This document shows positions 27,769 through 39,136 of a DNA stretch of 39,136 nucleotides, piece after piece. The position numbers and the translations under genes were made by a program. Source of the stretch: Armatimonadota bacterium. Its GTDB lineage: Bacteria; Armatimonadota; UBA5829. The stretch's first letter is position 1, and each line of letters begins with the position of its first letter. A model generated the notes under the pieces. The model was given only the letters and a program-made list of their open reading frames with translations. It was not told the DNA's origin and did not search any database. The DNA lies in contig JAAYKE010000023.1 of NCBI GenBank assembly GCA_012522575.1, positions 1 to 39,136 on the forward strand, written 5' to 3'.

Positions 27769-28632
27769 CTAAGCGAGTATCCGAATCTTGGCAGTGATCT
27801 CAGGGCGAGTGATACCTTGGCCGACCTCCGACCACACCAGCCAACCTGTTTTGAACCGGGTCTTCTGCTCAATGGCTTCGGTCTTGAGGCTCTCGCGCAC
27901 TGGCATTTTGCCTACTTCCTCATCTGGAACGAGGAGTATCTCATTCATTTCGGCAGACGCCGTGAGCAGAATGCCGCCAGTACCGTAGTTCTTGATGACG
28001 CCCTTGGTACGCAGTTCCGCTCGGGTTTCGGGATCAAGGTCCCAATCGCGCATGTCGTTAAACCGCCGACCGCGCATGACGATGTACTTGACCGACAGTT
28101 CCAGGTCCTCGATGATGGAGATTGCCTCGTTGAGCGCATCGTCTGTGAGCTTGCCTCCAGTCACATCAATGGTGTTCGCGGCAGGCACAGCAGCGGAGAT
28201 GACAGAGCTCGTGCGCCTGTCCATCTCCTTGCGAATTTGGTCGGCGGCGGAAGTCTGGATGTCCATCAGGGTCCCGATATTGCCGTTTTTGAGGACCGAG
28301 ACATCGACCATAGGTGTTGAGTGGATGCGATGAGTCGGAAACTCAATCTCGTCCTGACCGAGTTCCTGCTCACGAGCCTCACCCTCATTGCTGATCCAGT
28401 AAGCTTTAACCTTCGGCTTCTTCTGGTAAATGGGCCGCTCGCCTTTGGGAAGCGTGTGCTGGGTCAGCAGGAGCGAGGTGATCTCCTTGCGCTTGATCTC
28501 CTGCTCGATAGGCTCGGCAATTGCCGCCGCCAGCGCGCGCATTCCATCCGGAGATTCCAAAGCCTCGCTCATCAGGCGGGCCATGGTCTCCATGTATTCC
28601 TGGCTGTGAATGTTAACTTGAGTTGTTTCCAA
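27769..28632 (-). CDS. Putative major capsid protein
   Basis: A 287-residue protein directly after the decoration-like gene and scaffold, the normal place for the capsid. It has an N-terminal helix, 'SPDGMRALAAAIAEPIEQEIKRKEI', a hairpin ('RPIYQKKPKVKAYWIS'), and a core with 'FPTHRIHSTPMVDVSVLKNGNIGTLMDIQTSAADQIRKEMDRRTSSVISAAV', and a C-terminus with 'EVGKMPVRESLKTEAIEQ' and a final strand. The pattern fits an HK97-like fold, although 287 residues is short. It starts with TTG at 28632 after AGGAGG; no better ATG is placed upstream. Stop TAG. Confidence 0.72.
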   Translation of the reverse strand: METTQVNIHSQEYMETMARLMSEALESPDGMRALAAAIAEPIEQEIKRKEITSLLLTQHTLPKGERPIYQKKPKVKAYWISNEGEAREQELGQDEIEFPTHRIHSTPMVDVSVLKNGNIGTLMDIQTSAADQIRKEMDRRTSSVISAAVPAANTIDVTGGKLTDDALNEAISIIEDLELSVKYIVMRGRRFNDMRDWDLDPETRAELRTKGVIKNYGTGGILLTASAEMNEILLVPDEEVGKMPVRESLKTEAIEQKTRFKTGWLVWSEVGQGITRPEITAKIRILA

Positions 28633-28641
28633 CGCTCCCTC

Positions 28642-29004
28642 CTATATGAGCAGGCGGAACTTTAGCGCCCCGCGTGATACCGAAATGGCCCTGGCGACCA
28701 CCTCGTCGCCCTCCTCGATACCCGCCGTGAGTTTGCCGTTAGCCGAGACCTTGAGGTCATCGTCGGGATTGATCGTCCCCTCGAAGACGTCAGTTTCGTA
28801 GATGCCGCCCATGCAGAAAATGCCGGGCATCTCACCGTTCTTGTAGTCCTTGATGAGCACACCGAATGACTTGGCAGTCGGGTCGGTATTCACGGCGAAG
28901 AGATCGTTTCCGACCAGCTTCACTATCTGACCGCACGACCCGGCACCCTGCATGTATCCGTCGCCGTAGGCGAGTCCTCGATGATTGGGATTAAGAAATG
29001 CCAC
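28642..29004 (-). CDS. Capsid decoration-like protein
   Basis: A 120-residue beta-rich protein starting with GTG at 29004 after GAGGAGG. 'GLAYGDGYMQGAGSCGQIVKLVGNDLFAVNTDPTAKSFGVLIKDYKNGEMPGIFCMGGIYETDVFEG' and 'GDEVVARAISVSRGAL' suggest a small beta-barrel of the kind seen in decoration proteins (lambda gpD-like or DUF2190). It lies between scaffold and capsid, the classical site. The stop TAG lies inside the ribosome binding site of the capsid gene (TAGGAGGG). Assigned by context and pattern. Confidence 0.65.
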   Translation of the reverse strand: MAFLNPNHRGLAYGDGYMQGAGSCGQIVKLVGNDLFAVNTDPTAKSFGVLIKDYKNGEMPGIFCMGGIYETDVFEGTINPDDDLKVSANGKLTAGIEEGDEVVARAISVSRGALKFRLLI

Positions 29005-29018
29005 GTTATTCCTCCTCG

Positions 29019-32000
29019 TTAGTTACTCTTGCCCGCGCCGACGCGCTCACGGTAGGCAGCCATGAAACCGTCCTTGAGCTTGTCTTCGAGGCTGGTCTTC
29101 TTGTCATCTACATCGAGCGGGCGTACGCCCGCGTCGGTGCGAAGCTGGCGATCCGTACCGGCTGACGCGGTATTATCCTTGCCGTCTTCGTCTTGCTTTC
29201 CGGCGTTAGAACACTCGGTTTTCGGCTGAACTGCGCGCTCGTAGGCAGCCTCGGTCGCCGCGAATGCATCGTCCGAAAGCCCGGCAAGACGATTGAGTTC
29301 CTGCTCACGCTCCTCGTCGGAGGCGAAGCTCAAGCCCGCCTTTTCGACTTTTCGCAACAGCTTTTGAGCGCGGGACTTGTTGGCGGCTGCCTTGCTCTCG
29401 GCTTCAAGTTCATCGATATGCTTCTGCATGTCGGCAAGCTGCTGTTTGAGCTGTCTGTTCTCGTCTTCAAGCTCCTTGATGCGGCTCTTGTCGTCTACCG
29501 AAGCGCCCCCGCCCGGAGCGTTCTTCTTTGCAGCGTCTTCGTGCTGCTCGTCGTTCTCGTGTTCTTTCTTGTCGTCTTCCACTGAAGAGCCTCCTGAATT
29601 TGTCTGTGTCATTTGCCCTGAATGATCCGAGGCGACCTGGGTGATGCGTGCGTTCTCATCAGCGCCTTTGCGGTCGAGAAGACCAAGGCCGGTGAATGTA
29701 ACACCGTGAAGTATCTCGAAGACCGGTTTCCCTTGATATTCCGCACCTTTGTACTTGCGAAGATGAATGCAGTAGTCGTTTTTGTTGGTCACCATCTTGC
29801 CGCAGATGGAGCACTCGCCGGTCTCGTAATCGCATTCCATCGAGACCTGACTGATAATGCCGCGTTTCATGAGCTTGTAGGCAAGCGCGGCCGTTGGGGT
29901 GTCCTTCACGTAAAGCTCGCCCACGCACTCCACTCTGCCACCGGTATCATCTTCGACGAACTCGGATGCGGTGATGCCGCCGACGATGTCGATGAGGTCC
30001 TGAGAGTGCTTGAGGTCTATTTTTCTGTTGATTGCTGTCGTGCAGCGAGCCGCCAGTTCGTCTGGGGTAAAGTGGTCGCCGTTGCGGTTTGTTCCCGACC
30101 GGCACATCACGAAGCCGAACTGCGGATCACCCGCGTTGGGGTTGAGGGCAATCGCTTCGGTCGAGAGTCCGTCCTTGTTCGTCAGACTCACTTCCACGGG
30201 GACAGAGGTGTGGCAGTTGGAAACACCCGCCGAGGCGATTGACCTTGGAGAACCTGATGCAATGAACAGAAGTTCGCGCCCTATCTTGCCTTCGCCGCCT
30301 CTGCCAAGCATGATGTTGTACTCGACCTCCATCCCCTTGACCTTAACCTGGCCGAACCGACCGGCGAAGATGTCCTTTATCTCCTTCTCAGTGGGGAATG
30401 CCCGGTCACGGTAGGACATGATAACGGTCTTGTATCTGCTGTGTGCCTCCGTTGCCAGGCTCTCGATGAGAGTGCGAATGCTGTCGCGGTCGTAGTGAGT
30501 ACGCGATTTATAGCTGCGGCGGTTGTCGTCGAGAAGTTGCTTGTCCGCCCAGCGGTTCATAAGGCCCTCGACGAAGTGGAGCGAGTACTCGTAGTCGTTG
30601 TTTGAGAACTCGGTTATGTAGGGCGGGTCTAGATACAGCACGTCCGTGCCGAACTTACGCACCGCCTCGACAGCATCGCCGTGGAATGCTTTGCATTCCT
30701 GACCGCTGTCGAACACGAGCCTGTTGAGTTGAACCGCGTATCGCTTGAAGCTTTCCACCATACTTGGTATGGGAATGCTCGTGAGCTGGTTCTCCTTGAA
30801 ACTGCCAGCCTCCGCTTCCATATCAGCATCCGCCTTGAGATTCAGTTTCGAGCGATGGAACTGGCCGTAGAGGCTCTTTGCCTTCACGGTATTGCCGAGT
30901 GCAGCAAGCGCCAGATCCTTCTTGTAGCCGGAGAGCTTTTGGATATTCGCCCACACCTGATCGAGCCAAGCCAGCACTTTCCTGGTATAGTAGTAACCGT
31001 GAAAGTTGTCGACGATGAACGTCCCCGCATTCGGGTTCGGCGCGAGAATCTTCTCGATGTCCTCGTCCGAGAGCGTCTCGTGCGAGTTCTCGACTACCGC
31101 ACGCGCGACGTGGTAGGGAAAGAGCAGCAGGTCGTTTGCGATGACCTTCAGGCCCTTACGCTTGAAGTGATAAGATACATTCGCGCCGCCGGAGAATGCA
31201 TCGAGGATGGTCTTCGCGTCTTTCGGCACCTGTTGCTCGATCCAGCCGAGCATCACGTACTTGTTGCCCATGTAGCCGGTAACCTTTACCGAATCCACCC
31301 CTGCCTGGCAGGAGAGCAGGTCCACATCGTCCGAAAGCGGGGCGTCTGCAAGCGCCTGCATGTTGTTTTCGATCCGAATCTCGGCGCTCGATGCCAATGG
31401 CTCGTGCTGTTTCATCCACTCTTGGGCTTTCTCCATTGTCCAGCCGTCGGGGTTCTGCTCGGTCTTCTTTGCGAACCGATACGCCTGCAAGGCCATCGCC
31501 TTTGTGTCATGGCCTTCCGGTACAAACTCCTTCTTGAGCCTGCCTATGATGATGGCGACGCCGTCTACATCGTCGAGGACTTTGCGTCTGAAGCTGTCGG
31601 GTTCGAACTGCTCTGGGTCGCGCACTCGGTAGCGGATCTCATTGGGAGTCTCATCCCAGACTGCCTGCGCCTGCATTTGTGAACACACCGGACACAGGCC
31701 CGCAGTCTGTTTCATCTCACTGGCTCTGGAACAGATGAAGAGTCGCTCTATTGCCTGAGAGTTTTCTGAGTGCCGCGAGGAGATGTGGTATTTATGCTGC
31801 TGGGACTGCATCCGGCTTGACATGCCGCTGGACGAAATGATGTTCCTCATCTCATCTTCGTTCGGATAAGCGTGATCGCGGTATGAGATCAGCCAGTTCG
31901 GGATGTGCTTTGCACTTGCAAGAAATGTCGAGATAAACTCGGCCGCGTTGGCTTTTGTAACCGTCTTGTGGTCGGTTTCATAGTGATGAGTTTTAGAGTC

Positions 32001-32846
32001 ATCCACGAGCGTGAGACCATCCCAGTAGGTCATAAGACCTTCGACGAAGTGGTAGCTCTTCTCATAGTTGGTCGTTGAGAACTCAGTGGCGTAAGGCGGG
32101 TCGAAGTAAGCAAGGTCCACTTTTGCATCGGCCAGAGTCTCGTTTACATCCTTGCGAGATGCCTTGCACTCCTTACCGTTGTCGAAGACGAGAGCGTTTA
32201 TGCGGGCGATGTTGTCCGCGAAACGCTCCTTGAACTCCTCCGGCGTGTCCTGCCGCTTGCCGTAGTCGGTGGAAGATGAGAAATGCCCGAAGCCGCCCTT
32301 GCCCGACATGCATGTCTTGCCGAGAGCGAAGAGCGCGATGTCCCTCTTGTAACCAGAGAGCGCGTCGATATTCGCGCGGATGGTATCGATGACACCGTGA
32401 ACGCCATCGGCGAAGAAGAGGCCCTTGAAGTTGTCGCGGACGAACGTGCCTGCCTTGGGGTTGTCGGCCAGCAGCGCGTCGAGTTCTTCCTGGCTGATGC
32501 GAACGCCGTTGTTTTCGATGATAGCCCGAGCCGCATGGTGGCAGTAGTGGAGCCGATCGTTGGCGACGACCCGCAGCCCCTTGGTCTTGTACATGTACGC
32601 CACGACTCCGGAGCCGGAAAACGCGTCGATGACTGATCCCACATCCTCCGGGGTGTGCTTCCAGATCCACTCGACGAGCTTCTGCTTCGAGCCGATATAG
32701 TTGGTTATGTATTTGGGCCGCTTGTCCGGTGGCAGTTCCTTGATGACAAGTTCCGCGCCCTGAGCGATAAGCAACTCAATTCGGCGCGCGGCGTCTGTCT
32801 CGAGAAGGAACGCTAGCCGGTCGAGATCTGTTGCGAAGAGTTCCAT
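29019..32846 (-). CDS. Tandem adenine methyltransferase - prohead protease - scaffold fusion
   Basis: A single 1275-residue frame, start 32846 with GGAG 6 bases upstream. Residues of about 40-375: D12-class (Dam-like) N6-adenine methyltransferase with motif I 'DAFSGSG' (74-80) and motif IV 'DPPY' (249-252). Residues of about 385-480: a CPVC pair and a segment 'RYRVRDPEQFEPDSFR', then 'GWTMEKAQEWMKQH', which resembles N-terminal domains of phage prohead proteins. Residues of about 515-870: a second methyltransferase, 'DAFSGGA' (549-555) and 'DPPY' (740-743), clearly paralogous to the first. Residues of about 885-1070: prohead protease with candidate catalytic His947 (DLKHSQD) and Ser1002 (ISQVSME), plus a Cys-rich insert (C1005, C1012, C1015, C1026, H1028). 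Residues of about 1120-1275: coiled-coil scaffold. The normal order would have a protease-scaffold gene only. Confidence 0.88.
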   Translation of the reverse strand: MELFATDLDRLAFLLETDAARRIELLIAQGAELVIKELPPDKRPKYITNYIGSKQKLVEWIWKHTPEDVGSVIDAFSGSGVVAYMYKTKGLRVVANDRLHYCHHAARAIIENNGVRISQEELDALLADNPKAGTFVRDNFKGLFFADGVHGVIDTIRANIDALSGYKRDIALFALGKTCMSGKGGFGHFSSSTDYGKRQDTPEEFKERFADNIARINALVFDNGKECKASRKDVNETLADAKVDLAYFDPPYATEFSTTNYEKSYHFVEGLMTYWDGLTLVDDSKTHHYETDHKTVTKANAAEFISTFLASAKHIPNWLISYRDHAYPNEDEMRNIISSSGMSSRMQSQQHKYHISSRHSENSQAIERLFICSRASEMKQTAGLCPVCSQMQAQAVWDETPNEIRYRVRDPEQFEPDSFRRKVLDDVDGVAIIIGRLKKEFVPEGHDTKAMALQAYRFAKKTEQNPDGWTMEKAQEWMKQHEPLASSAEIRIENNMQALADAPLSDDVDLLSCQAGVDSVKVTGYMGNKYVMLGWIEQQVPKDAKTILDAFSGGANVSYHFKRKGLKVIANDLLLFPYHVARAVVENSHETLSDEDIEKILAPNPNAGTFIVDNFHGYYYTRKVLAWLDQVWANIQKLSGYKKDLALAALGNTVKAKSLYGQFHRSKLNLKADADMEAEAGSFKENQLTSIPIPSMVESFKRYAVQLNRLVFDSGQECKAFHGDAVEAVRKFGTDVLYLDPPYITEFSNNDYEYSLHFVEGLMNRWADKQLLDDNRRSYKSRTHYDRDSIRTLIESLATEAHSRYKTVIMSYRDRAFPTEKEIKDIFAGRFGQVKVKGMEVEYNIMLGRGGEGKIGRELLFIASGSPRSIASAGVSNCHTSVPVEVSLTNKDGLSTEAIALNPNAGDPQFGFVMCRSGTNRNGDHFTPDELAARCTTAINRKIDLKHSQDLIDIVGGITASEFVEDDTGGRVECVGELYVKDTPTAALAYKLMKRGIISQVSMECDYETGECSICGKMVTNKNDYCIHLRKYKGAEYQGKPVFEILHGVTFTGLGLLDRKGADENARITQVASDHSGQMTQTNSGGSSVEDDKKEHENDEQHEDAAKKNAPGGGASVDDKSRIKELEDENRQLKQQLADMQKHIDELEAESKAAANKSRAQKLLRKVEKAGLSFASDEEREQELNRLAGLSDDAFAATEAAYERAVQPKTECSNAGKQDEDGKDNTASAGTDRQLRTDAGVRPLDVDDKKTSLEDKLKDGFMAAYRERVGAGKSN

Positions 32847-32987: not shown

Positions 32988-33323
32988 CTACCGGCGAGGC
33001 AAGCCCTGCAGGACGAGCGCCGCGCATTCTTCTGCTGTGGCGAACTCCTGAGTCTCTATGATCTCACTGCGAGTGCCGATATACGGCGAAAGCGTGGCGC
33101 GATGATATTCCAGGAAATCCTCCGGCAGCGACTTTATATCATTCTCCACAAGTCGGTTGATGACCCAGTCTGCGTCTTCGGCAAAATCGTCGTTACCAGG
33201 CAGGTATTCCATGATGATGTCGAGGCCCGGCCCGGGTCCTTGCACCCAGACGCCTATGGGTTCATAATGCGGATCGGTATCGCGATCACGGAGGGCGTAT
33301 TCCACCATATACCTAAGCTGCAT
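32988..33323 (-). CDS. Small hypothetical protein downstream of MuF protein
   Basis: A 111-residue protein from ATG at 33323, which has GGAGGGG about 8 bases upstream; a start at 33359 is inside the previous gene and weaker. Acidic and beta/alpha in pattern: 'MVEYALRDRDTDPHYEPIGVWVQGPGP', 'YLPGNDDFAEDADWVINRLVENDIKSLPEDFLEYHRA' and 'EFATAEECAALVLQGLPRR'. No family is recognised. Its acidic character and position, two genes after the large MuF protein, fit an immunity or antitoxin protein, but that is inference. Stop TAG. Confidence 0.6.
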   Translation of the reverse strand: MQLRYMVEYALRDRDTDPHYEPIGVWVQGPGPGLDIIMEYLPGNDDFAEDADWVINRLVENDIKSLPEDFLEYHRATLSPYIGTRSEIIETQEFATAEECAALVLQGLPRR

Positions 33324-33792
33324 GGTCCCACCCCTCCGCGATCTTCGTGTGCTCTTCAAGAAGCTGGACGTCTATCGCGTCAAGCTCGGACCTGTTGTCG
33401 TTCTTGTATCGCTGCCATTTGTCCCAGGCAACCACATAATCGTGCTCCGTGGCATCCATAATGAGTTCGATGTGATACGTGCGGTCGCGGTCATCGGTGA
33501 GGTCAAGCTCTAACGTGTCCTCCCGGCTCAAGTGAACAACCTTTATGGTGTGAGTATACTGAAAGCCGTTGTCGTAACCCACGGACTTGAACATCAGCCA
33601 GAAGTCAGTCTTTGTGATGTTCCCACCTGCATCGAAGTGCGGCGCGACCCGCGTAACGGTGTAGCTGTCGATAAGGCCGAATGGCAGGGGAGTATCGTGT
33701 CCCTCGCGCATTACCATAAGCGATCCTCCCCGATTGAACTCCTCGAACAGCGCTTGCAGCTTTGCCTTTTCCTCTGCTATGAAATCCCGCAT
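33313..33792 (-). CDS. Small hypothetical protein immediately downstream of MuF protein
   Basis: A 159-residue protein, 2 bases after the MuF gene, ATG at 33792 with GAGGT upstream. An N-terminal helix (AEEKAKLQALFEEFNRGG) is followed by a beta-rich region: 'SYTVTRVAPHFDAGG', 'DFWLMFKSVGYDNGFQYTHTIKVVHLSREDTLELDL' and 'YHIELIMDATEHDYVVAWDKWQRY'. It is acidic and of unknown family. MuF-type polymorphic toxins often have their immunity gene directly downstream. This gene occupies that position, and there is no other evidence for the role. Stop TAG overlaps the next gene. Confidence 0.65.
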   Translation of the reverse strand: MRDFIAEEKAKLQALFEEFNRGGSLMVMREGHDTPLPFGLIDSYTVTRVAPHFDAGGNITKTDFWLMFKSVGYDNGFQYTHTIKVVHLSREDTLELDLTDDRDRTYHIELIMDATEHDYVVAWDKWQRYKNDNRSELDAIDVQLLEEHTKIAEGWDHAA

Positions 33793-33794
33793 GT

Positions 33795-36700
33795 TTACCT
33801 CACCAGAACGATGTCCTCAACCTTGCGGCCATCGGACAGAACGGATATGCCATGCTTTGCGAACACTTTGAGCACATTCGCCCGCTCCGACTCGCTTGAG
33901 ACGACCACCGCCTCAAGGTTATCGAGCAGCGTGATCGAATACTTGAAGATGGTCTCGTTGCCCGAACTACGCGAAAAGCTCTTCCACGCAGCCGGATCAC
34001 TGCCGCGATTACTGGTTACGTAATCATCTGTTACCTTGCCGTAAGTGTCATGGCTGTAGCTTATGGCATCCATTCTGCGCAGAAGCCGGTTCTTGAAATA
34101 CAGTCCGCATTCGCCGCTCCTGCTCGAAAGAGGTGACTTGCGAATCCGCGTAAACACATAGCTTGCGCCGCCGCTTCGCATATCCGCTTCCGGCGACATG
34201 CCGCCCGGGGTAATCCCGGCTCTGAGCTTCTCCACGGTACTTATCATCGCGCCGTTGTTTTCGAGTGTACTGTCGAGAAACGTGCTCATATTCGAGTTAT
34301 TGGTAAGGTTGTGGAAAAGGCTGTAGCCCGTCATCTGCTTTTCCATATCCTTGTCGGAGATATCGAATCTGTACTGATGCCTGTAACCGCCCATGACCTT
34401 ACTGTTCTTGAATCCGTGCTGGTATTCCCCGACGGGATTGTATCCCGGCAACTTCGTGATGTCCGGCACTCCAAGCCGTTTCTCCCAGAACGAACGCATT
34501 GCCTGTATGCGCTCGGTCTTCGCGGCATTGCGTCCATCGAGATCAGTTACCATCCTGAGATACTCGGAGTCGCGGTCGGCTTTTGTGATATAAGCCTGTT
34601 TCGTCAGATACAGAATCTCCGCATCATCGGCGGTGGCGACGTTCGCCTTGAGTCCGACTTTCTCGATGTGTTCAAGCGCCGTCTCCAGGCTCTTTGTATC
34701 CGGGCGATTCGGTATAGTCACCTCAAGCTCACCCGAGTGCGCGTACAGGTTCTTCTTCGACCACGGACGATAGGTCGCGCGAATGCCGTCTCCGAAGTCT
34801 ATTTCATATTGCTCACCGTCCGGCATCGGGTGTCCCCGGAAGAGCGATGTGGTTGTCGCCGCCTCGGTTTCGACCGATAGATCGCCACTCCTGATGGCGC
34901 GCCTGGACTGCATTACTTTCGTCTTTCGAACAGTAAAATCAGAATCCTTGACTTTCTTCCTGGGAGGAGAGTGCTTCTTCCGATAACTCTCAAACATCTC
35001 CGAGATAGGTTTTCTCTCCCTGGCAGCTTGCTGCGTCTTTTCAATCCATGCGATATAGACCTGTGCCATCTCCCGGATGTCTGGATCCTCGGAGCCTGTT
35101 AGCTTTCTGAGTGCATCAAGATGCTTAGTCACCTTGTCCAGCTTGGACTTGTTATATGTGCCGTCCTGCGCGTGATGGTTCACAGTCTTCACGGCAAGCA
35201 GGATGTCTTCGGCGAAATCATCCTCATCCAGAGGCTCTCCTATCCTTGCAGCACCGGTCTGTCTGTCGGATTTCCTGAGCGCGGGCAGTATCTTCGACTC
35301 GGCTTCGGGTCGCACCTTGAGCTTGATCACCGTTCGCTCCTTGCCGCCAACGGTCTCGGTAAAGATTAACGCGTTCTGGTCTTCGATGTCGGTTTCGTCT
35401 ATAGGCAGCGTCTTGCCCTGCCAGCCGAGAAGACGCGCTTCCTCAATAATCTGCTCCTCTGCTTTACCGATGCGGCCAGTTGCCGGAGCCTCGGTGCCAT
35501 CATCGAACCTGAACTTCTTTTTGTTGAGGACGTCGGCATAGAATTCCTCAAAGTCGCCGCGCAGGTTGTGCTTTCGGGCAAGCGCGAGATCGTAGAACGC
35601 TTTCTTCTTCAGTTCGTCGCTGCCGAACCTGCCCTCGACATATGGTCGGATCAAGGCCAGGTAATCATCATCAGATATGCGCTCTACCTCGCGGATGTAG
35701 CGCAGGGTGACCGAAGGATCGGCCGTCACCTTGCCCTGTTTCACCGCGCGAAAGAGAGTGTTGTAGAACGGCTCGCCCTCACCACAGGCTCCGTTGGGGT
35801 GGTAGTCGATGGAGAGTTTGTCAGAACCGAGGAACTTGAAAAGCTGGGCCTTGTCGATACCGTAGACCTTGCCGGATTTTGCCCGCAGAAACTGCTTGGA
35901 ATGTCCGTCGTGATTGGAGATAATCCAGTCTATGACATGCTCGCGCTGAACCTGCGCGATATCATCGGACGAAAGATCGGTGACATCGAAACTGGAGAAA
36001 TCAGACTTAGCCACCAGTCCGCCGCGCCACTTCTGAATAGAGCCTGCTCGTCCGTTAAGCCGGATCGTCCTGACTTCCATTGCTTCTGGGTCAATGAGAC
36101 GCCCTATCTTGTACGCGGCCTCCTCACCATGCGCGATGAAATCGTCGGATGATTTACCGACCGGCTTGAAGAGCCATTTATCGCCGTTCTCGTCAAGCCA
36201 GAACTCCTTCTCGTGCGCCCCGCCGACGCTTGCCTTACCGACATACTTGAACTTCTCAGGCTTACCGTGCTCGGCCCAAGCCGCGTCTGCCGGATCGAAC
36301 TCTGCGGTTTTCTTCGTAAATGTGTTCGGCGTCACGACTGTGACAGGCTGTGGGGTAACCTGTGGTTCCGGTGTATGAACTGCCTTCGGCTGTACTGCCT
36401 TACCAGGTTTTGCCAGGTGCTTCTCAGCCCACTTTGCATGCTTTGCCTCGATGCTGGCCTGTGCAGCAGACAGCTTAACCGGATCAGTCTCCGTGAACAA
36501 CGTGATCAACTCGTCTTTCGATGACCACTGCCAATGCTTGACCTTTGTCTGCTTCGCCAGGTCCTTCAGCTCGCTAGACTTCATCGCCGAGACCTGCTGC
36601 TGGAATGTGAGCTTCTTAACTGCGACCTCCTTTGCGTGCTGTTCGAGGACCGACGTCGGCAGGCCCGCATCTTTCGCCAGTTCCATTTCGGCAGCTTTCA

Positions 36701-38387
36701 CCGACTCGAGAAATGAGGAATACTGAGCGGGAGAAGACGGCATCACTATCTGCGATGTGGCGGTTTTGAGAGCTTGGTCGGCCTTCTTGAGCGCCTCCTG
36801 CTTTGCGGTATCCAAAGCCTGCTTCTTGGCCTGTTCAGCCATCTGCTGGCCCGCTAATTTCTCAAGAGCCTTGACGAGCTGCTCTTTGTTTTTCAGCGGC
36901 GGGATGCTATGTTTCTGCTTGGCAGCGATTAGGGCCTTACCGGCAAGGCCGGAGTGATCCATACCTGGCTCAAGGCCGTCCAGCATGTCGATCACTTCCG
37001 ATTTGGTGAGGTTCAACGACACGCCGTGCTGCTTGGCCATGTCCTTGAGTTGGACCATAGTAAGGTTGGAAAGGTCGGTCTGTGGAGCGGGGCTTTTTGC
37101 GGCTTCTTCAAGTTCCTTGGCCTGTTTTATCACTGCCTGCTTCTCAGCAAGGAGCTTTGCAAGCTCGTCCTTACTGCGCAGCGCAGCGATATTGTATTGC
37201 TTTATCTTCACCTGAAGCGCGGTCCCCGATAGGTCGCCGTGATGGATTCCCGGTTCTGCCTGGTCGAGCAGTTTAATGAAATCGGACTTTGTTCGGGCGA
37301 CGGCAACGCCGTTCTGTTTCGCCAATGTCTGAAGCTGCTTTACAGTAAGGGTGCCGAGATCCGCAATATCACCCGACTCGAATGCGCTCTTTAGCTTCTT
37401 CTCTTCTTCAGCCTTTTGTTGTGCCTGGAACTGTATCGCCTGCGGAGGCAAGATGCAGGCGTTCTGCCCGGGCGCAGCGGACGCGCCGAGTTCGCCGCCG
37501 CAGATCACCAGCGGCCATGCAACGACACTCGTGCAGCGGCAGTTGGGGTGAGCTGGCTGGCTGGGGAAGTGGTCGGTATCGAAGACCTTGCCGTCGAGAC
37601 CACCGCAGACCGGGCACATCCGCTCTTCTTCCATTGCCAACCATTCGAGCTTCTGCACCCCGACCTCTCTGTGGAACTTGATGCGCCCCTGGTTGTGGGC
37701 ACGCAAAACTTCCGTGCGGGCGATCATCTCCATCCGGTACTGTGCTTTGGAGAACACCTTGCTTCCGGCGTTGCGGAACGATTCTTTGTCCTCGATGACC
37801 TTTCCGAGATCCCGGGCTATATCGTCCGCGCCTTTGCCGGTGGCGATACCGGAGAGAATCGTGCGCTTGATGCCATCCGAAAGCTCGCGATGGATATCAC
37901 CGACAAGCACCAGATTATAGTTGGCCATAAAGTCCAGCGCGTCGGTATCGATAAGGGTGAAGACTGATGTGGTGAGCTTGTCTATTCCGTCCGGTCTGAG
38001 ATCGCAGTAGAAAGGCATCCGGGCAACTGCAAGTTCCTCGATCCCACGATAGACGCCGGATCTGAAGCTCGTCCGTGAAGCATTGCGGAACATCAATGTG
38101 TGGTCTTTACGGAGCGTACGCATAGTCTCGCGTATCTCGGCATCCAGCTTCTCAAAACCCTCCAATGCCGCGAGCTTATTGTCGGGCAATGAGCCAAGAC
38201 TTTTGTAATTCATAAATGCCCGATGAACCTGTTCCTGTGCTGACTTGAGCGACTGGCTGAGCTGGTGAGCGACCTGCTCGGCGTAGAGATCGCGGGTCAT
38301 AAGGCTTTTGTCCGCCGCCTCTCGTATGGCCTTGGCCTGCCATGTGAGATCGGCGACGGCACACATCATCGGGGAGGGTGAACTCAC
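33795..38387 (-). CDS. MuF-type head protein with SAP-like repeats, kinase-like domain and C-terminal toxin-like domain
   Basis: About 1530 residues from GTG at 38387, which overlaps the portal stop as GTGA; a start at 38423 lacks a ribosome binding site. Residues of about 200-290: MuF minor head protein signature, 'ARTEVLRAHNQGRIKFHREVG', CPVC (258-261) and 'HPNCRC' (280-285), likely zinc-binding. Residues of about 340-515 and 594-660: SAP/HeH-like repeats (LTVKQLQTLAKQNGV, LTMVQLKDMAKQHGV). Residues of about 703-930: HipA/PI3K-like kinase fold with Lys741 (WLFKPV), Glu755/756, candidate catalytic Asp827 in 'NHDGHSKQFL', and metal-binding Asp845 ('YGIDKAQLF'); the usual Asn is Gln832. Residues of about 1182-1270 and 1318-1530: domains with 'RGHPMPDGEQYEIDFGDG' and 'GGASYVFTRIRK'. 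The last might be an ADP-ribosyltransferase-like effector. It would be packaged in the head. Confidence 0.82.
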   Translation of the reverse strand: MSSPSPMMCAVADLTWQAKAIREAADKSLMTRDLYAEQVAHQLSQSLKSAQEQVHRAFMNYKSLGSLPDNKLAALEGFEKLDAEIRETMRTLRKDHTLMFRNASRTSFRSGVYRGIEELAVARMPFYCDLRPDGIDKLTTSVFTLIDTDALDFMANYNLVLVGDIHRELSDGIKRTILSGIATGKGADDIARDLGKVIEDKESFRNAGSKVFSKAQYRMEMIARTEVLRAHNQGRIKFHREVGVQKLEWLAMEEERMCPVCGGLDGKVFDTDHFPSQPAHPNCRCTSVVAWPLVICGGELGASAAPGQNACILPPQAIQFQAQQKAEEEKKLKSAFESGDIADLGTLTVKQLQTLAKQNGVAVARTKSDFIKLLDQAEPGIHHGDLSGTALQVKIKQYNIAALRSKDELAKLLAEKQAVIKQAKELEEAAKSPAPQTDLSNLTMVQLKDMAKQHGVSLNLTKSEVIDMLDGLEPGMDHSGLAGKALIAAKQKHSIPPLKNKEQLVKALEKLAGQQMAEQAKKQALDTAKQEALKKADQALKTATSQIVMPSSPAQYSSFLESVKAAEMELAKDAGLPTSVLEQHAKEVAVKKLTFQQQVSAMKSSELKDLAKQTKVKHWQWSSKDELITLFTETDPVKLSAAQASIEAKHAKWAEKHLAKPGKAVQPKAVHTPEPQVTPQPVTVVTPNTFTKKTAEFDPADAAWAEHGKPEKFKYVGKASVGGAHEKEFWLDENGDKWLFKPVGKSSDDFIAHGEEAAYKIGRLIDPEAMEVRTIRLNGRAGSIQKWRGGLVAKSDFSSFDVTDLSSDDIAQVQREHVIDWIISNHDGHSKQFLRAKSGKVYGIDKAQLFKFLGSDKLSIDYHPNGACGEGEPFYNTLFRAVKQGKVTADPSVTLRYIREVERISDDDYLALIRPYVEGRFGSDELKKKAFYDLALARKHNLRGDFEEFYADVLNKKKFRFDDGTEAPATGRIGKAEEQIIEEARLLGWQGKTLPIDETDIEDQNALIFTETVGGKERTVIKLKVRPEAESKILPALRKSDRQTGAARIGEPLDEDDFAEDILLAVKTVNHHAQDGTYNKSKLDKVTKHLDALRKLTGSEDPDIREMAQVYIAWIEKTQQAARERKPISEMFESYRKKHSPPRKKVKDSDFTVRKTKVMQSRRAIRSGDLSVETEAATTTSLFRGHPMPDGEQYEIDFGDGIRATYRPWSKKNLYAHSGELEVTIPNRPDTKSLETALEHIEKVGLKANVATADDAEILYLTKQAYITKADRDSEYLRMVTDLDGRNAAKTERIQAMRSFWEKRLGVPDITKLPGYNPVGEYQHGFKNSKVMGGYRHQYRFDISDKDMEKQMTGYSLFHNLTNNSNMSTFLDSTLENNGAMISTVEKLRAGITPGGMSPEADMRSGGASYVFTRIRKSPLSSRSGECGLYFKNRLLRRMDAISYSHDTYGKVTDDYVTSNRGSDPAAWKSFSRSSGNETIFKYSITLLDNLEAVVVSSESERANVLKVFAKHGISVLSDGRKVEDIVLVR

Positions 38388-39136
38388 TTGCTCTCGACCT
38401 TCCTTGGTTGCAGGAACCGGCACGCCGGAGAGTCGAATGTGACTTCCGCCTGGATGACGCCGCAGCGATTGTGTTCGGCATCGAAGTATCCGCAGGAGTC
38501 ACAGACTTCACCGTCGTGCTCACCCTTCGCAAACAGTCCGCCCCATGCCGCATCCGCTCTTGAGCCGGTCGGATTCTTCGCGGGGTCGAGACCAAGCATC
38601 TCCTGCGCCGTCTCCACGCTCATGATTCCGGCTACGGCCATATCGACGATGGGCTTCACCTGCTTCTCATCCAGGAGATCGACCGACTTGCCCTCGTGCT
38701 CCCGGTTGGCGGTCTCGGTGTCAGGGTCAAGGTCCATCTTGAGCTGCAGTGATGAGCGACTGATGAGCTTGCGGTCGTAAAGCTCGATAAGGAGCTTCTT
38801 GAAGTCCACCGCGTCGGTCGGGTCGAGGTCGTTGAAGACGAACTGGATGCCCTTTCCCTGATGCCCGGATATCTCAAGCCAGTCGGTGTATATCCAGTCG
38901 AGGATCGTCTTTGCCGCGTGCTTAATCTCCCGGATCATTATGAGCATCTTCTGCATAGAGACCGATGCGGTTGCGAAGTTCGGGCCGTCGCCTGCGACTA
39001 GCGACCGCGATAGCCCCAGCGCGACGACTATGTCTTCCTTTACTTCCTTGACCTTATCCTCGACATTGAGAACCTCGCCTTCGGTGCCGTAGGTCTCGAC
39101 CGTCACGTAGAACGGCACGACCATGCCGCTTTTCAT
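38384..39136 (-). CDS. Portal protein, C-terminal part (truncated by window edge)
   Basis: At least 250 residues at the upstream edge; the first ATG coincides with the last bases of the window, so the true start is probably outside. 'EDIVVALGLSRSLVAGDGPNFATASVSM' and a long clip-to-wing helix 'MLIMIREIKHAAKTILDWIYTDWLEI', then 'FNDLDPTDAVDFKKLLIELYDRKLISRSSL', are typical of portal proteins. The C-terminus has a four-Cys motif, C-x2-C-x9-C-...-C ('CDSCGYFDAEHNRC...SPACRFLQP'), resembling small zinc or iron-binding knuckles. It overlaps the MuF gene by 4 bases. The large terminase would lie just outside the window. Confidence 0.75.
   Translation of the reverse strand: MKSGMVVPFYVTVETYGTEGEVLNVEDKVKEVKEDIVVALGLSRSLVAGDGPNFATASVSMQKMLIMIREIKHAAKTILDWIYTDWLEISGHQGKGIQFVFNDLDPTDAVDFKKLLIELYDRKLISRSSLQLKMDLDPDTETANREHEGKSVDLLDEKQVKPIVDMAVAGIMSVETAQEMLGLDPAKNPTGSRADAAWGGLFAKGEHDGEVCDSCGYFDAEHNRCGVIQAEVTFDSPACRFLQPRKVESK

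Follow-up and report, generated by a model that had tools for sequence, protein, structure and literature searches.

Organization of the late gene region

The analyzed window, a stretch of 39,136 nucleotides, corresponds to the entire contig C160 of a 3.06 Mb genome in 189 contigs. One gene on its minus strand (29019-32846) encodes a protein of 1275 amino acids in which two adenine methyltransferase domains (MT1 and MT2), separated by an optional domain, are followed by a prohead protease and a scaffold part in a single open frame. Translation of the window verified that this frame starts with ATG, runs through 1275 codons without interruption and includes the stop codon; the motif GGAG is located five bases upstream of the start. 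A sequence-only reading of this DNA had claimed the uninterrupted frame and had recognized the architecture, but it had missed the strand, the optional domain, the nested scaffold start and the existence of forms with a single methyltransferase. The fusion of two D12 methyltransferases, protease and scaffold is confirmed to be real.

The window is the late region of a contractile-tailed phage. Its genes are all found on the minus strand, as are all window features described below, and are arranged in the order portal protein, MuF-type head protein, a protein of 159 amino acids, fusion, small head protein, major capsid protein, neck, sheath, tube, tape measure and baseplate. The portal gene (38384-39136; PHROG 2739, E 8e-29) is cut by the contig end. 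Upstream of the fusion, a MuF-type head protein of 1542 amino acids (33795-38423) matched Pfam Phage_Mu_F (E 1.3e-16) and PHROG minor head proteins. A small head protein (28642-29004) is encoded directly downstream of the fusion, before the major capsid gene (27769-28632; PHROG 2522, E 9e-89). It is found at the same place in relatives and is, judged by position, of the decoration type. Apart from the weak match of this small protein to PHROG 673 ("head scaffolding", E 2.5e-4), no other protease or scaffold gene was recognized with Pfam and PHROG profiles in the head module of the window. The order portal, MuF, fusion and capsid was observed in all 21 loci examined, as far as each of them reaches.

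The methyltransferase domains

MT1 (residues 44-372; 31731-32717) is a D12/Dam-like adenine methyltransferase with the motifs DAFSGSG (residues 74-80) and DPPY (249-252), and MT2 (residues 520-862; 30261-31289) is a D12 adenine methyltransferase with DAFSGGA (549-555) and DPPY (740-743). Both motif pairs of the earlier reading could thus be located, and its two D12 domains were recovered as two stretches matching Pfam MethyltransfD12 (E 2.7e-45) far above the cut-off (155 versus 22 bits). The solved folds nearest to the methyltransferase model were E. coli Dam, which ranked first for MT1, followed by Mcbe1 and DpnM. The DPPY motif was kept in 66/67 distinct MT1 copies and in all 35 of the 35 MT2 copies. 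Pairwise dN/dS ratios, calculated from synonymous distances that are partly near saturation, ranged from 0.04 to 0.10 for MT1, from 0.05 to 0.08 for MT2 and from 0.04 to 0.06 for the protease, which indicates that purifying selection on both methyltransferases is about as strong as on the protease.

The region between the methyltransferases contains an optional domain (residues ~400-490; 31377-31649) preceded by a CPVC pair. It is present in 15 and missing in 18 of the 33 distinct contigs with two methyltransferases, belongs to no known family and yielded no significant Pfam, PHROG or phage-record match. In a quick tree, MT1 and MT2 grouped with strong support as sister clades to the exclusion of chromosomal homologues, and the single-methyltransferase forms were nested among MT1. 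The methyltransferase pair therefore appears to be old, and the single forms arose by loss of MT2, probably on more than one occasion. One relative (L074) keeps the optional domain even though MT2 is missing. The single forms show that the second methyltransferase domain is dispensable.

Homologues of the methyltransferases at ~30-36% identity adjoin an endonuclease, which is of the EcoRV type in two genomes of the host phylum and of the AlwI type in Erysipelothrix phage phi1605. The methyltransferases of the fusion therefore seem to derive from type II restriction-modification systems. These homologues share the domain and differ in adjoining an endonuclease instead of being part of a head gene. 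The two EcoRV-type pairs are located at L170:4676-6549 and L172:271-1809, the endonuclease frame of the latter being short. Site counts in the window and eight relatives pointed to no target among GATC, GATATC, GGATC and GGATG, and GATATC was not depleted. Many other six-base palindromes (GCCGGC, CGATCG, CTCGAG, CCGCGG, AAGCTT, CAGCTG and GGCGCC) were strongly depleted in the same sequences, which, with codon effects uncontrolled, is consistent with exposure to type II restriction.

The protease domain and its linker

A prohead protease domain (residues 905-1072; 29631-30134) follows MT2. The residues proposed from the letters alone to be catalytic, His947 and Ser1002, were found to be invariant in 44 sequences, and so were the three cysteines and the histidine of an insert (C1012, C1015, C1026 and H1028) that is probably zinc-binding. 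Prohead-protease similarity was indeed present in residues 885-1070, where its absence had been named in advance as counting against the assignment. Curated profiles matched below their cut-offs, namely Pfam S78 with 15-17 versus 21 bits (E 0.028) and the HK97 proheadase profile TIGR01543 of NCBIfam with 19.9 versus 59 bits (E 6.5e-4); both sub-threshold matches span the residues holding His947 and Ser1002. A tblastn search with residues 867-1275 hit proteins annotated as prohead proteases in Rhodococcus phage E3 and Gordonia phage Pupper. The AlphaFold model reached pLDDT values > 90 through most of the protease core, and its best viral match in a predicted-structure search was gp19 of phage G (E 2.9e-17), among 144 viral models at E<=1e-3, many of which are annotated as prohead or head-maturation proteases. 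The first five PDB matches were herpesvirus proteases (pUL26N, VZV, HSV-2) with E values of 5e-3 or weaker. A sequence search of the PDB with the protease-scaffold alignment returned no protease and mainly weak matches to coiled coils, zinc fingers and other proteins, and the methyltransferase alignment returned nothing; comparison of structures was more informative. Predicted structure and homology together firmly point to a prohead serine protease of the S78/HK97-herpesvirus protease clan.

MT2 and protease are joined by a Ser/Ala-rich, variable linker (residues 863-904; 30135-30260) with the conserved elements CHTS-PV and L(S)(T/A)EA. It changes fast, is modeled with low confidence and is a possible cleavage zone. 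A comparison with the capsid N-terminus revealed no clear cleavage motif common to both. Four relatives (L073, L079, L080 and L093) contain other optional domains of ~100 residues before the protease, which are unlike that of the window; the two that were tested had no Pfam match.

A nested start for the scaffold

The C-terminal part contains a coiled coil and following helices (residues 1119-1206; 29229-29492). Residues 1119-1169 (253-303 of the model) form a confident long helix with a pLDDT of ~90, in accordance with the coiled-coil scaffold that had been proposed for this end of the protein. Between protease and coiled coil, the relatives have a GG(x)xM/V/L pattern in common, which at the DNA level corresponds to a ribosome-binding site and a start codon. 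In the window, this is a GTG at position 29582 (residue 1089) with AGGAGG 7 bases upstream, opening a nested in-frame scaffold gene of 187 amino acids (29019-29582). Residue 1089 alternates between Met, Val and Leu and is always written with start codons. A column-by-column count detected a start with ribosome-binding site at this column in 34/40 nonredundant relatives (next best column, 3/40), and inspection of 56 distinct sequences by eye located the corresponding site in 55, all except L093. When the whole frame was counted, column 1089 scored in 22/26 double forms (next best, 5) and in 7/8 single forms (next best, 1).

The same scan of double and single forms revealed no comparably conserved internal start before MT2 or before the protease, and separate translation of MT2 or the protease from such a start was rejected on this ground. 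As the sole conserved internal start is that of the scaffold, it is well supported that the scaffold would also be made alone, probably in excess, and equally that the protease would be made only as a fusion with a methyltransferase.

Relatives of the fusion gene

Viral and genome contigs were scanned for relatives, and all loci were translated and then scanned with one profile per domain. Besides the window, 66 distinct contigs, which derive from independent metagenomes and metagenome-assembled genomes, contained a complete fusion frame, one contig with two copies being counted twice. They fall into 33 double-methyltransferase forms of ~1160-1360 amino acids and 33 single forms, of which all except L074 measure ~800 amino acids. 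A single form is carried by contig IMGVR_UViG_2932987669, which to judge from its name probably belongs to an isolate genome. Full-length relatives matched the window protein at 42-86% identity. The frame is broken in a handful of contigs (L066/L099, L083/L137 and L084). Prophage copies occur in metagenome-assembled genomes of the window genome's own family and order, and a contig of 197 kb combines one copy with an integrase gene and regular chromosomal genes, among them that for EF-G. These data show an ancient fusion, conserved and kept under selection, that occupies the protease/scaffold slot. One contig of 133 kb (IMGVR_UViG_3300001567_000262) harbors the fusion region twice, 88 kb apart, in similar but non-identical versions (L076/L110 and L077/L111), perhaps two related prophages in a row.

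Proposed role of the fused methyltransferases

The gene is interpreted as encoding the head protease and scaffold of a phage or prophage with a contractile tail from an Armatimonadota-type host. Its fused methyltransferases would be packaged, ejected and antirestrictive; a probability of about 0.5 is assigned to this reading. An ancestral pair of restriction-modification-type adenine methyltransferases would have been fused to the N-terminus of a protease-scaffold gene. The nested start would yield plain scaffold and the full frame a methyltransferase-protease-scaffold chain, which the scaffold tail would carry into the prohead. After assembly, the protease would cut the linkers and the scaffold, as in established head assembly. 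Methyltransferase pieces of ~40 kDa would be too large to exit and would stay with the packaged DNA; ejected together with it, they could, by adenine methylation, shield the genome against the type II restriction enzymes of the next host.

The steps of this scheme differ in strength. The gene position, the lack of another recognized protease or scaffold gene and the nested start, which ties the protease to the methyltransferase, speak strongly for packaging inside the prohead: a protease present only with a methyltransferase attached is likely to be co-assembled into the prohead. Release of the methyltransferases by cleavage, their retention and ejection and an antirestriction function are plausible and may follow. 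The mechanism put forward in the sequence-only reading, namely packaging, release by cleavage and delivery against restriction, is thus supported in part. The complete chain, in which every head takes in the protease and hence a methyltransferase, the protease frees the enzymes inside and the ejected enzymes protect the incoming genome from type II restriction by methylating it, is put forward tentatively, at somewhat less than even odds. In most phages, the protease degrades the scaffold as well as itself, and the fragments exit the head. The methyltransferases could be degraded along with them, which is a counterpoint to delivery. Furthermore, the PHROG 673 match of the small downstream gene leaves room for a second counterpoint, namely that the C-terminal part may not be the sole scaffold.

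The same evidence for co-assembly, gene position and nested start, would also be expected if the methyltransferases acted in the prohead or at packaging on progeny DNA and afterwards were broken down or stayed behind in the emptied head. Methylation before exit would guard the DNA at entry without any ejection of enzyme. This scenario is nevertheless rather doubtful, as a free cytoplasmic methyltransferase would suffice without fusion, as in many phages, and densely packed DNA is presumably a poor substrate. Alternatively, the fusion could be a device for late expression, with autocleavage in the cytoplasm freeing the methyltransferases for replicating phage DNA and no packaging at all. The variable, low-confidence linkers could be the cleavage zones for this. 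Prohead proteases, however, are normally activated within the prohead, enzymes can be expressed late without being fused, and the fusion has been retained across a large family without a conserved separate start, so that this explanation is judged unlikely. The methyltransferases of the family never occur apart from the protease, save in broken or truncated frames, as would suit a structural or DNA-binding role in the prohead core instead of an enzymatic one; the nearly invariant catalytic DPPY motifs and the low dN/dS values make this very improbable. An assembly chimera or frameshift, which the sequence-only reading had named as its own refutation, or a chance joining is already refuted despite the few broken frames, because the relatives carry the same fusion in one frame and match it over their full length.

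Relation to known systems

The working proposed for the delivered methyltransferases resembles that of the Dar proteins of phage P1, which are packaged in the capsid, are co-ejected and protect against restriction, DarA being cut by the prohead protease (PMC9024508, PMC12810830). As in that system, head-packaged antirestriction proteins would enter with the DNA, and one Dar protein contains an adenine methyltransferase. This protein, DarB, differs in being a separate EcoKI/TaqI-like methyltransferase-helicase that is directed against type I systems, is taken up by an N-terminal signal and is not fused to a protease or scaffold. The methyltransferases of the fusion are not DarB-like by Pfam, as they belong to the D12 class and are without a SWI2/SNF2 helicase domain.

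In phage lambda, the scaffold Nu3 is made alone from an internal start and also as the tail of protease C. The fusion shares the internal in-frame start with a ribosome-binding site before the scaffold part, read here from the sequence; the lambda protease, in contrast, is of the ClpP/S49 type and has no methyltransferase, whereas that of the fusion has a herpesvirus/HK97-type fold. Homologous prohead protease domains are found in Bacillus phage G (gp19), Moorella phage MTATph1 (CDS0006), Rhodococcus phage E3 (gp77), Gordonia phage Pupper (gp94) and the Bxz1-like phage Ava3 (gp98). In these isolated phages, the gene likewise precedes that for the capsid protein and, where both flanks were covered (all except Ava3), follows the portal gene, but the protease is near the N-terminus and leaves no room for a methyltransferase in front.

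In polyvalent proteins, too, enzymes share a chain with virion proteins or are located next to them, and delivery is predicted; in the covered portion of their description, the methyltransferases are mainly DarB-like with helicases, the fusion is not described and the word "prohead" occurs in the reference list only (Iyer et al. 2017, PMC5512222). The suggestion that the exact architecture was new is roughly borne out. No paper describing the fusion was found in the open-licence literature, and an earlier description elsewhere is possible. The methyltransferase-protease-scaffold part, on the other hand, is already spanned by PHROG 27806 (798 positions; query residues 522-1271, 1315 bits), which is shorter than the window protein and annotated only as "DNA methyltransferase". 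Virion-packaged enzymes and protease-scaffold fusions are of known kinds, and the nested start within the fusion is newly reported here. The present assignment re-labels a large family filed under that annotation as the head-maturation protease of its uncultured phages. If the proposed role is correct, the scaffold-borne protease provides a further route for loading enzymes into the head, in place of a signal peptide, and the fusion is a natural modular carrier that takes one or two methyltransferases plus optional further domains and brings its own protease for their release. With delivery, head maturation would be obligatorily coupled to antirestriction.

Further candidate enzymes in the head module

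Behind its MuF domain, the MuF-type protein of the window contains endonuclease VII-like and Rho_N/SAP-like stretches, and its length in relatives varies strongly from ~290 to 1730 amino acids. These features make it a candidate for a second enzyme carrier linked to the head. A variable cargo slot is located just upstream of the fusion, after a small gene that matches window positions 33313-33792. This slot is empty in the window; in relatives (L006:4300-9940, L010:7006-9940 and L014:7505-9950) its contents differ and include an Eco57I/N6-type methyltransferase of 1040 amino acids with a weakly AbiEi-like neighbor, a protein kinase and an HD phosphohydrolase.
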